DNA from: Methylibium petroleiphilum PM1
GTDB lineage: Bacteria > Pseudomonadota > Gammaproteobacteria > Burkholderiales > Burkholderiaceae_C
Direction: 5' to 3'
Length of the DNA stretch: 64,000 nucleotides
Assembly (NCBI RefSeq): GCF_000015725.1
Contig: NC_008825.1
Location: 2,542,001-2,606,000 of the forward strand
In this document: in pieces, positions 59,224-64,000 of the stretch
Position numbering within the stretch: position 1 is the first letter of the stretch
Layout of the letters: each line of letters begins with the position of its first letter
Position numbers and translations under genes: made by a program
Notes under the pieces: model-generated
Told to the model about the DNA's origin: nothing
Seen by the model: only the letters and a program-made list of their open reading frames with translations
The model's database searches: none

Positions 59224-60684
59224 TTAGATCGGAAGCCTGGGACCTCGGCGAACATCTCCTGCCGGCGATTGCGAATGCATCGCACGCCAAACTTCGGCCA
59301 GTCGACGAATCGCTTCATTGCTCGTCTCCGTCGGCACGGTGAAGGGCAAGCGAACGAAACGCTCGAATGCATCGTCTATTCCAAACCTCGGGCCAGCTGA
59401 AAGAAGGACTCCTGCGTGGCCTGCCGCACTGACGAAGCGCGATGAGATTCGCTCTTGTAGATCGACCCAAAGGCTAAGTCCGCCGAGCGCCCTCGTCGGA
59501 CGCCATTCAGGAATGTGGTTGTTCAGCTGAGAGACCAACTCGTCGCGAGCAGTGCGAAGCACTTGTCGGCGATGCGCGACCACTTCGTGCAACCGGGGGA
59601 ACAGTGAGGCGACGATCAGCTGCTCGAGGATCGGACTCGACATGTCGAGCGGAGGACGAAGACCCGCCACCTTGCGAATGACGGCAGCCGGGGCGCGCAG
59701 CCACCCGACGCGTATTCCGCCCCAAAAGATCTTGCTCGCCGATCCAATCGTCACGATGGGCGTCGCTTCTTCGGAGCCATAGACGCCTGTCGGCTCCGGT
59801 GCGTCGTGTTCGATGCCGAGTTCAACAAGTGTCTCGTCGATGATCAGGGGCGTCCGTGTTCGATGTGCTGCAAGGACAAGCTGCTTGCGGTCCGCGGGGG
59901 ACATGCAGAGGCCGGTCGGGTTGTGAAAGTCCGGAACGAAATAGCCCAGTTGCGCTCCGGAATCTCGCATGGTGGACGCGATCAGGTCGAGGTCCCACTT
60001 CCCTTCGTTGAAGGGCACCGGAACCGGCCGGGCGCCCCGCTGACGGATGGCGTCGAGGGCATTGGGGTAAGTCGGATGCTCAACAATGACCTTTGACCCG
60101 TGGTCCGCAAAAGCCATGATGGCGAGGCTGAGCGCCTGTTGGGCGCCACTCGTTATCAACACCTGCTCTGCATGGGTGGGAAGGCCTCGTGCCGAGAACC
60201 GTGCGGCGACGACCTCCCTCAGCTTGGGCAAGCCGAGCAGGTTGTAGCCGTGTCCGCGCAGGTGAATTGACAGCTGACCGGTGGCCTCGGCCATCGCGGA
60301 ATGGAACACCTCCACGGGCGCGCTCAGAGCGGCATGGGAAAGATCCAGCTCACTTCTTGCTGCACCTGGAAGCCAAGGCGCAGTCGCTTTGGAGTCCACG
60401 TCCTCAGGCAGTGCAATCCATGTCCCGGATCCTTGTTGGCTTTGCAGGAATCCGCACTGCCTCAGAAGGTCATACGCGGCCGCTACGGTGGTTCTGCTGA
60501 TGGCCAGCTCCGCTGCCAGCGAACGTTCGCTAGGTAGGCGGGTCATCACGGGAAGTCGGCCGTCCAGGACCATCAGCCGCGTTTGCTCCGCCAGCGTTGA
60601 GGCGAGGTTTCCACGAATCCCTTGGCGCCATTGGCCCAGATGCCTGGCAAAGCCTTGACTGCTCACGCGACGATCGATTTGCAT
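59224..60684 (-). CDS. MocR-type regulator (GntR-HTH fused to aminotransferase fold)
   Basis: A 486-residue protein: N-terminal GntR winged helix (about 25-95: LPSERSLAAELAISRTTVAAAYDLLRQ) joined to a class I aminotransferase-like domain. HNPTG (254-258), Asp 283 and PLP-binding Lys 318 in SASK are present, so it likely binds PLP. MocR proteins such as GabR and PdxR sense a metabolite through PLP. It is divergent from the hydrolase operon, with direct repeats between. Ends with a basic tail. Confidence 0.88.
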   Translation of the reverse strand: MQIDRRVSSQGFARHLGQWRQGIRGNLASTLAEQTRLMVLDGRLPVMTRLPSERSLAAELAISRTTVAAAYDLLRQCGFLQSQQGSGTWIALPEDVDSKATAPWLPGAARSELDLSHAALSAPVEVFHSAMAEATGQLSIHLRGHGYNLLGLPKLREVVAARFSARGLPTHAEQVLITSGAQQALSLAIMAFADHGSKVIVEHPTYPNALDAIRQRGARPVPVPFNEGKWDLDLIASTMRDSGAQLGYFVPDFHNPTGLCMSPADRKQLVLAAHRTRTPLIIDETLVELGIEHDAPEPTGVYGSEEATPIVTIGSASKIFWGGIRVGWLRAPAAVIRKVAGLRPPLDMSSPILEQLIVASLFPRLHEVVAHRRQVLRTARDELVSQLNNHIPEWRPTRALGGLSLWVDLQERISSRFVSAAGHAGVLLSAGPRFGIDDAFERFVRLPFTVPTETSNEAIRRLAEVWRAMHSQSPAGDVRRGPRLPI

Positions 60685-60690
60685 GCGCTT

Positions 60691-60743
60691 GATCCACTAT
60701 CAGGCGATTGGCCATTTCCGTCGCCGCCATCCAGATCCAATAT
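60691..60743. promoter_or_regulatory. Direct repeats GATCCA(C/A)TAT, candidate MocR operator
   Basis: GATCCACTAT (60691-60700) and GATCCAATAT (60734-60743) are direct repeats, 33 bases between them, 43 bases start to start. GabR binds two direct repeats with a spacer of about 34 bases, the same geometry. They sit between the divergent MocR gene and the hydrolase gene. Confidence 0.5.
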
Positions 60744-60767
60744 AGCGGAATTGAGCGGCTTCATTCA

Positions 60768-60789
60768 ATCCACTTCGAGCGAAGTGGAT
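60768..60789. promoter_or_regulatory. Perfect 10-bp palindrome before the hydrolase gene
   Basis: ATCCACTTCG (60768-60777), AG, CGAAGTGGAT (60780-60789) is a perfect inverted repeat that begins 70 bases before the start of the hydrolase gene. Its arms contain GATCCAC-like sequence (the reverse of the direct repeats above), so it could be an additional regulator site or a leader hairpin. Confidence 0.4.
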
Positions 60790-60837
60790 CACCAAGACGC
60801 TCACCCTTGGTTTGCCGATTGGTGCAATGGAGAGCGA

Positions 60838-61590
60838 ATGAATCAGCTTGCTGCGGTCGAAGGTTCTGGCCTGCATCGTGTGCTCGTTCTTCACGGATGG
60901 GCACTCGACAGCGGGGTATGGCTGGCGAGCCGCGCTTTGACCGACCAGGCGCAGTTCTGCTACGCGTACTTCGATTTCCCGGGCTATGGAGTGAACCGAC
61001 GCCAAGCGCCGGCTGCAAGCCTGGACGATATGGCCGCTGCCGCGCTTGCGGCGGCCGATAGCCTCGGGTGGAGTTCGTTTTCGGTCGTGGGTCATTCGAT
61101 GGGCGGCGCCACGGCCATGCGGGTCGCGACGATGGCGCCCCAGCGCGTCCGCTCGGTGGTCGCGGTCACCCCAGCGTCGCCCGGAGGGACGCCACTCGAC
61201 GCAGATGCCTATGCCCACTTCCAAAGCGCATGGGCTGACCCGGCGACACGCATCGTCAAGGCGCTCTCGCCGGGCATTGCACCGGTCGACCTGCGCAACC
61301 TTTCAGCGCGCAACCGCGCCACGATGAACCAAGTCGTCTGGGACGCGTACCTCGCGAACTGGACCTCTGCCAATTTTCTGACCGAGTTGAAGAACTACGA
61401 CGGCCCCGTCGAGTTGCTGTACGGAGAAGACGACCCGTTCGTCACGCCGGCTTACCTGTCCTCAACGATCGCCGCGCTGCCCCGGCACAACTTGCGTTGC
61501 ATCGCCAAGGCAGGTCACTACCCCATGGTCGAGCAACCCGCCTCGACCGTCGGCTTATGGGAAGCGGCGCTGGCCACGTCAGCACGCTGA
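60838..61590 (+). CDS. Alpha/beta-hydrolase
   Basis: A 250-residue alpha/beta-hydrolase fold enzyme: oxyanion-hole HGW (19-21), nucleophile elbow GHSMGG (Ser 87), acid GEDDPF and the C-terminal His in GHYPMVEQP. Resembles BioH/haloperoxidase-like esterases; substrate unknown. Start 60838 has GGAGAG 5 bases upstream. Divergent from MocR, 27 bases before the next hydrolase gene, so they are probably one operon. Confidence 0.8.
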   Translation: MNQLAAVEGSGLHRVLVLHGWALDSGVWLASRALTDQAQFCYAYFDFPGYGVNRRQAPAASLDDMAAAALAAADSLGWSSFSVVGHSMGGATAMRVATMAPQRVRSVVAVTPASPGGTPLDADAYAHFQSAWADPATRIVKALSPGIAPVDLRNLSARNRATMNQVVWDAYLANWTSANFLTELKNYDGPVELLYGEDDPFVTPAYLSSTIAALPRHNLRCIAKAGHYPMVEQPASTVGLWEAALATSAR

Positions 61591-61617
61591 CCTTCACTGA
61601 CTCAAGGAGACGTACGA

Positions 61618-62469
61618 ATGCCAGTTGATGCACACGCACAAGGACTGCTGGATGCCCTCAAGGCGCAGGGCCTCAAGTCGTTCGAACAGATGACCATCGC
61701 CGAGGCGCGCGGCGCGATCGAGACGTTCGTGGGCCTGCAGGCTCCGCCAGAGGAGGTGAAGCAAGTCCACGATCTGACGGTGAAGGGGCCTGCAGGTGAG
61801 CTCCAGTACCGGATCTTCGTTCCCGCTGGTCCGACACCTATGCCGGTTCTCGTGTACTTCCACGGGGGCGGCTGGGTCGGTGGGAGTCTCGCGGTGGTGG
61901 ACGAACCCTGCCGGGCGATCGCGAACCGTTGCGGCGCCGTGGTCATCGCTGCGAGCTACCGACTTTCACCGGAAGCCCGGTTCCCCGCGGCGACGGACGA
62001 CGCGTACGCCGCAGTCCAATGGGCCAGCGCCAACGCCGCGACCTACGGCGGTGATGCGAGCCGTCTGGGCGTCATGGGCGACAGCGCCGGCGCCAATCTC
62101 GCGGCGGTTGTTTCAATGATGGCGCGTGATCGCAAGGGGCCGGCCATCAAGGCTCAGATCCTGACCTATCCCGTGATCCAGCGCGATGGCGACTTCGCCT
62201 CCCGCAAAGCCAATGAAGAGGGGTATCTGCTGACGTCGGCGGGTGTCGCGTGGTTCTGGAAGCAGTACCTGGCGAGCGATGCGGACGCGGTCAACCCGTA
62301 CGCATCGCCCATCATGGCCAAGGACCTGACCGGCCTGCCCCCTGCACTGGTGATGACCGCCGAATTCGACCCCGCGCGCGACGAAGGCGAGGCCTACGGC
62401 AAGGCGCTGGCCAAGGCGGGGGTTCCTGTGACGGTCCGCAGGTTCGAAGGTCTGATCCACGGCGTCTTC
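61618..62469 (+). pseudogene. HSL-family alpha/beta-hydrolase, 5' part, interrupted by an IS5 element
   Basis: The hormone-sensitive-lipase family is clear: HGGG (82-85) oxyanion hole, GDSAG (154-158, Ser 156), acid in EFDPARDEGE and His in LIHGVF. The IS element enters right after GVF codons (62464-62469). The present reading frame runs on into the IS to 62496 with seven foreign codons. Joining this part to 63684-63761 restores a 309-residue protein ending like other family members (see separate entry). All catalytic residues lie before the break, so the truncated product may keep some activity. Confidence 0.9.
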
Positions 62470-63679
62470 GGAAGCGCTGATCAACCCGCTTCGTGACCGC
62501 GACTCGGCCGACAGCGGGCGTTGATGGCGACTCGTGAACTCAGAAGTGGCACCGATGAGCCCCTTCTGCGGCACTTCGAGGCCGCTCTCAGGCCCCCGTT
62601 CATGCAGCAGACGCACTGAGGCCTTGGGCCAGCAATCGGCGCCGGGCGATGTACAAGTTGGCCAGCGCAGCGTGCGCCTTCGCGCGAGCTTCGTTCTTGG
62701 AGATCCCGCGGTAGCTGACCTTGCGGTAGCCGAACAGGTTCTTGATGACGTGGAACGGGTGTTCGACGATGGCCCGCACCTGAGCCTTGCGCCGTTCGAA
62801 CCACTCGTGCATCGCCTTGGCCGGCCCTTCGGGCATGGCCTTGAGTTGGCCGCGCTTCATGGCGATACGCCAATCCATGTCCTGGCGCAGCCTGCCCTCT
62901 TCCTGCGCCGTCGTGATCTCGTCTCGCCTCTGGATGCCGGTGTAGCCGCTGTCGCCGTGAACTTGGCTCTCCTGGCCATGCAGCAGTTCGTGCGCGTGCG
63001 CCACGTCAGCCTCGTTGGCCGCGGTGCAGACCACGCTGTGGATCAGACCCGACTCGGCATCCACGCCCGAGTGCATCTTCATCCCGAAGTGCCACTGGTT
63101 CCCCTTCTTGGTCTGGTGCATCTCGGGGTCGCGCTTGCCGTCCTCGTTCTTCGTCGAACTTGGCGCGGCAATGATGGTGGCGTCCACCACCGTGCCCTGG
63201 CGCATCAGCAGCCCACGCTCGGTGAGGTGCGCGTTGACCTCGGCCAGGATGGCCGACGTCAAGTCGTGCTGCTCGAGCAGGCGGCGGAACTTCAGCAGCG
63301 TTGTGGCGTCGGGTACGTTCTCCCGCCCAAGGTCGATGCCGATGAACTCGCGCATGGCCTGGCTGTCGTACAGCGCGTCTTCCAGTGCCTCGTCGGCCAG
63401 CGTGTACCACTGCTGCAGGAAGTACATGCGCAGCATCCGCGGCACGCCAATCGGCGGTCGGCCCACCTTGCCGCTCTTCGGGTAGTGCGGCTCGATCAGC
63501 GCCTCAAGCCGCGCCCACGGAACCACCACGTTCATCTCGGCCAGGAAGCGCTCCCGGCGCGTCTGGCGCTTCTTGCCGGCGTACTCGGCAGTGGCAAAAC
63601 TCGTCTGCTTCATGGCAGCATCATCGCCGCTGAATTCGCCGCACGCCATCGTGGCCTGCACGGATAAATCAGTGCTTCC
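62470..63679 (-). mobile_element. Intact IS5-family insertion sequence
   Basis: 1210 bases with imperfect inverted repeats: left GGAAGCGCTGATCAACCCG (62470-62488), right complement GGAAGCACTGATTTATCCG (63679 back to 63661), 15 of 19 bases matching. A 4-bp duplication CTTC flanks it (62466-62469 and 63680-63683). It carries one transposase gene of normal length, so it seems complete and recently inserted. Confidence 0.92.
62600..63613 (-). CDS. IS5-family transposase
   Basis: A 337-residue DDE transposase: an N-terminal DUF772-like domain (MKQTSFATAEYAGKKRQTRR, PRMLRMYFLQQWY), and the DDE region with VVDATIIAAPSS (first Asp), HGDSGYTG (second Asp) and the final Glu near RAIVEHPFHVIKNLFGYRKVSYRG. 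Start 63613 fits the IS5 N terminus; upstream frame is open but is IS end sequence. The gene fills the IS. Confidence 0.93.
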   Translation of the reverse strand: MKQTSFATAEYAGKKRQTRRERFLAEMNVVVPWARLEALIEPHYPKSGKVGRPPIGVPRMLRMYFLQQWYTLADEALEDALYDSQAMREFIGIDLGRENVPDATTLLKFRRLLEQHDLTSAILAEVNAHLTERGLLMRQGTVVDATIIAAPSSTKNEDGKRDPEMHQTKKGNQWHFGMKMHSGVDAESGLIHSVVCTAANEADVAHAHELLHGQESQVHGDSGYTGIQRRDEITTAQEEGRLRQDMDWRIAMKRGQLKAMPEGPAKAMHEWFERRKAQVRAIVEHPFHVIKNLFGYRKVSYRGISKNEARAKAHAALANLYIARRRLLAQGLSASAA

Positions 63680-63683
63680 CTTC

Positions 63684-63761
63684 TGGATGTCCGGTGCGGT
63701 TCCTCGCGGCGCCGAATTGCAACAGGCGATCGTGCAGTTCGTTTCCAAGCAGTTGAAGTAA
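63684..63761 (+). pseudogene. HSL-family alpha/beta-hydrolase, 3' part cut off by IS5
   Basis: 25 codons plus stop beyond the IS and the second CTTC: begins WMSGAVPRG and ends FVSKQLK, the usual C-terminal helix of HSL-type esterases. It is in frame with 61618-62469 when the IS and one CTTC copy are removed. It has no start of its own. Confidence 0.85.
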
Positions 63762-63785
63762 CCCACACACCAACAGGCCTCCTGA

Positions 63786-64000
63786 ATGAACACCTATGCC
63801 GTTCTCTGGACCTACACCGCCGATGCGGAGAAGGTCGCCCGCCACAAAGACAGCCACATGCAGTACATCAAAAGCCTGGCAGCGGGAGGCGCAATTGTCG
63901 AAGGGGGAGCCTGGCGTGACGGCTCGGGCGCATTGATCATCTTCCGCGCCAGTGATCGCGAACAGATCAGGGGCTACCTGGACGCCGATCCATTCACGAC
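63786..64000 (+). CDS. YciI-like (dimeric alpha-beta barrel) protein, 3' partial
   Basis: The open frame runs from ATG 63786 to the window end (71 codons seen). It begins MNTYAVLWTYTADAEKVARHKDSHMQ and contains FRASDREQIRGYLDADPF, the YciI/EthD-like pattern of small dimeric enzymes. It starts 24 bases after the disrupted hydrolase gene, so it is likely the third gene of that operon, and the IS may affect its expression. Confidence 0.75.
   Translation, partial: MNTYAVLWTYTADAEKVARHKDSHMQYIKSLAAGGAIVEGGAWRDGSGALIIFRASDREQIRGYLDADPFT

Follow-up and report, generated by a model that had tools for sequence, protein, structure and literature searches.

The 3' end of an esterase gene on the chromosome of Methylibium petroleiphilum PM1 has almost certainly been interrupted by transposition of an IS5-family insertion sequence (IS), with duplication of the four target bases CTTC, and the resulting product is probably impaired. 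The gene was located in the window, that is, the whole stretch of 64,000 nucleotides that was analysed, and the features of the interrupted locus are summarized in Table 1.

Table 1. Coordinates of the interrupted esterase gene and the inserted element in the window
Feature	Position	Strand	Details
5' part of the Abhydrolase_3 / hormone-sensitive-lipase-type esterase gene	61618..62469	+	284 codons, ATG at 61618; contains Ser156 (GDSAG), Asp251 and His281 (basis: PF07859, LipP1, 20-sequence alignment)
CTTC target duplication, left copy	62466..62469	+	final 4 bases of the esterase 5' part
IS5-family insertion sequence	62470..63679		1210 bp; transposase on - strand
Left terminal inverted repeat	62470..62488	.	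15/19 vs right end
Read-through of the esterase frame into the IS	62470..62496	+	8 IS-encoded codons, then stop
IS5-family transposase	62600..63613	-	337 aa from ATG; DUF772 + DDE_Tnp_1
Right terminal inverted repeat	63661..63679		
CTTC target duplication, right copy	63680..63683	+	
Severed 3' end of the esterase gene	63684..63761	+	25 codons + TAA

The earlier note on this DNA had described a 1210-bp element with imperfect 19-bp inverted repeats and CTTC on either side, and it had claimed that exact removal restores the frame of a hydrolase gene. The element, its repeats (15/19) and the duplication were confirmed to the base. When the IS and one CTTC were removed in silico, the esterase frame was restored to 309 codons, with the 25-codon tail in frame and the TAA at 63759–63761. 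Open frames across the joined sites of 12 copies were also compared, which is uninformative by itself in such G+C-rich DNA, and the longest frame spanning the joined site here was not that of the esterase. At present, the gene encodes 292 residues versus 309 in the uninterrupted form, and the last eight of the 292 are IS-encoded. The insertion would have been carried out by the element's own type of transposase. Translation would enter the IS for eight codons and stop there, so that the protein would end at 292 rather than 309 residues and the last helix would be gone.

The uninterrupted site was found in a relative of the same genus (G001). The esterase orthologue of this relative, 96% identical over residues 1–286, is a continuous frame of 309 codons with a single CTTC. 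The window was aligned with this genome at 60119–62469 and 63680–64000, and the two matches overlapped by four bases of the relative, CTTC. The identity was 93.58% over 2352 bases upstream (approximately 6% difference) and 88.47% over 321 bases downstream (11.5% difference). The earlier note had proposed a comparison with relatives carrying the whole gene; G001 supplies such a gene with matching DNA on both sides, and the interruption of the hydrolase gene was thus borne out. Among the five other genomes of the genus that were searched (G001–G005), so close an esterase match was found only in G001. The IS had no match in G001 (7 of 174 candidates scored), and a query containing another IS-bearing locus (L011) returned only a 26-base match to its flank and no IS (40 of 138 scored); G001 is a draft of approximately 20 contigs, and repeats can be missing from such assemblies. 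Some match to the IS was obtained in 26 of 60 relatives, where up to seven candidates were scored in each genome; the match with the lowest E-value was 77% over 712 bases in G002. Since a related species carries the whole gene, the disruption is considered real but ordinary; it represents well-understood biology and raises no new mechanistic question. For annotators of this esterase, the copy here is truncated and an intact orthologue is available in a relative. A report on this very insertion was not found by title or the start of the abstract among the literature matches listed, which is no proof of absence.

The interrupted product was assigned to Abhydrolase_3 (Pfam PF07859, E 1.1e-75) and scored above the cut-off of the NCBIfam model LipP1 (NF058653; 375 bits, cut-off 350). 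By Pfam and NCBIfam, it shares its family with LipP1-type and hormone-sensitive-lipase-type esterases such as Est8 (4ypv) and EST2 (1qz3), which were matched by the intact orthologue of G001 with E 2.3e-75 and 2.8e-67, respectively. The chloramphenicol hydrolase model (NF033149) gave 255 bits, far below its cut-off of 500, and the esterase was therefore not assigned there. In an alignment of 20 rows, H82, G83–G85, S156, D251 and H281 were invariant, and the HGGG and GDSAG motifs were both present. Ser156, Asp251 and His281 are taken to be the catalytic triad, in line with the roles of these residues in the family. Five further matches to the esterase were found in the same genome, at 54% (C1:935153), 49% (C2:556067) and 40% (C1:1936655) together with partial matches at 40% and 38%, and these other family members may cover part of its role.

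Compared with Est8- and EST2-type esterases, the copy in the window lacks the C-terminal helix. With AlphaFold2, the intact orthologue (19-row alignment) was modelled at a mean pLDDT of 95.5 with its last helix at 293–307, and the interrupted product (20 rows) at a mean pLDDT of 91.4. In the latter, the last two blocks (281–292) fell to 57 and 56, no helix was formed in 281–292, and no element followed the strand at 271–280. The first two blocks of the N-terminus reached 76 and 78 in the interrupted product versus 92 and 87 in the intact one. Alignment and models agree with the previous claim that the truncated enzyme keeps its catalytic residues, here Ser156, Asp251 and His281, but loses the last helix. 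As far as such structure models, which say little about stability, can indicate, the protein is probably destabilised without its last helix, the 292-residue form is probably unstable or impaired, and the truncated esterase likely loses activity. As the core of the interrupted product was still modelled with confidence, loss of function is not certain and there is room for residual function.

The retained catalytic residues and the well-modelled core would also suit an adaptive or regulatory insertion, either through an active truncated esterase or through IS-driven expression of the downstream YciI-like gene, and IS5 elements are described as driving downstream genes in Pseudomonas syringae in PMC12858298. 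However, the region severed from this esterase is the one after the active-site His, which is present in 106/106 measured homologues, and no sigma-70-like match was found in 61500–64000. The scan of this interval for promoters and terminators gave no hits, where shuffled sequences led to expectations of 0.4 and 1.3, and is a weak test. An adaptive or regulatory role is accordingly regarded as improbable, and it is slightly more improbable still that the insertion left the full esterase shorter but active, with a C-terminus encoded by the IS, and that this form was selected in the lineage. Under the preferred reading, a plain transposition that probably impaired the esterase, transcription of the YciI-like gene (63786 on) may nevertheless be altered. 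The profile matches of this YciI-like frame were below cut-off. Within 59224–63998, a regulator-like frame, presumably of MocR/GntR type, is divergent from an alpha/beta hydrolase gene, the esterase gene and the YciI-like gene.

The inserted element belongs to the IS5 family (IS5 group), as indicated by its transposase profile, short terminal inverted repeats and 4-bp duplication. The transposase matched the NCBIfam IS5_4 model (NF033581) with 333.3 bits (cut-off 140) over profile positions 1–285/285, and its longest frame begins farther upstream, at a GTG. The likeness to the IS5 group extends to the size of approximately 1.2 kb, the short imperfect inverted ends and a duplication that is mostly CTAG, the IS5 duplication found in earlier studies according to PMC10379815. 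At least 12 copies of the IS were found on the chromosome (40 of 203 candidates scored), and 12 were identical over 1210 bp. The 4-bp duplications matched in 11 of these 12, namely CTAG in six, TTAG in two, and CTAA, CTGA and the CTTC of the esterase site in one each. Unlike CTAG, TTAG, CTAA and CTGA at the ten other sites, CTTC is off the IS5 group consensus, yet it is exactly duplicated; this deviation counts against the explanation preferred here. Chance was excluded as the cause of the IS pattern by the 11 other identical copies, the matching flanks in 11/12 and the empty site in G001. The identical copies and this empty site also point indirectly to transposition of the element in the cell.

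Twelve identical copies are a situation in which assemblies go wrong, and the IS could in principle have been placed here by an assembly error in repeated DNA and not by transposition. However, none of the other 11 copies has a CTTC duplication, G001 has one CTTC at this position, and the site is interior to a contig of 4,044,195 bases. Misassembly is thus very unlikely, and transposition of the IS5-family copy into the esterase gene is retained.

The insertion had previously been called very recent, which holds in relative terms only, given the 12 identical copies and the absence of an IS match in the draft G001. With no difference in 12 × 1210 bases, change since the spread is at most 3/14520, or approximately 0.02%, a rough bound that assumes independent copies and would be weakened by gene conversion, whereas the DNA beside the insertion differs from G001 by approximately 6% upstream and 11.5% downstream. 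Since 12 copies are identical and 11/12 have matching duplications, the element seems to have spread recently relative to the divergence of the species, and judged from one genome of the species, a relatively recent insertion of the IS is supported. The IS would then have spread recently in this lineage and cut a metabolic gene. Clade-specific IS5 expansions in Pseudomonas syringae, as given in PMC12858298, are similar in that a single IS5-family element has recently spread within a particular lineage; the copies number at least 12 here versus >100 in the genomes of that source. Among 37 plasmid records with a match to the element, none covers 80% of it in one place, and the best 20 of the 37 reach a coverage of at most 54% with an identity of 71.8–79.9%.

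The C-terminal region was compared at 109 homologous loci, of which 29 were obtained from one search and 80 were retained of 588 from another. Three of these loci were not measurable, as two hit contig ends (one, L121, has 24 residues past His with no stop) and one failed to align as far as His. In all 106 measured homologues, the His was present and was followed by 25–56 residues (median 29.5), versus 11 in the window product. Naturally short relatives without the tail, which the earlier note had named as evidence against an interruption, were therefore absent from the measured set. The window product does not have the full-length C-terminal region of LipP1-type esterases and is a broken member of that family. 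The codons of the window and G001 differ at 60 of 309 positions, 48 of them silently; in the 25-codon tail (63684–63758), nine codons differ, seven of them silently, although this is a small sample. As the tail differences are mostly silent, the tail seemingly remained coding during much of the period after the two lineages diverged, within the limits of that sample. A chance open frame as the tail was ruled out by the G001 orthologue and the mostly silent codon differences. A natural C terminus of the hydrolase near residue 292, with unrelated sequence or a chance open frame after the IS, agrees with an open 292-codon frame containing Ser, Asp and His but can practically be dismissed, because the G001 orthologue runs on through the tail and 106/106 measured homologues are longer after His.

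Other copies of the element were also observed in the genome. On the second contig (C2), no identical IS copy was present among the matches listed, and a diverged relative was located at C2:504119–504959 (77–83% in three pieces). The sole copy of the 12 without a matching duplication (GAAG/CAAG) is L011 (C1:2706500–2708300, IS at 329–1538), which is flanked by a piece of a HisKA histidine kinase on one side and a YHS-domain end on the other; the YHS-domain end has 72% identity over 78 residues to C1:857315, in a 533-codon open frame. The two flanks seem, from their sequences, to derive from different genes, which suggests either that IS copies recombined with each other or that DNA next to the IS was deleted. 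These two events are among the causes of missing duplications named in PMC11708052. Three identical IS copies (L003, L004 and L005) lie within approximately 5.3 kb at C1:3175413–3180738, and at C1:2769250–2774143, two identical copies lie on either side of a related segment (2771402–2771950) that is 71% identical.
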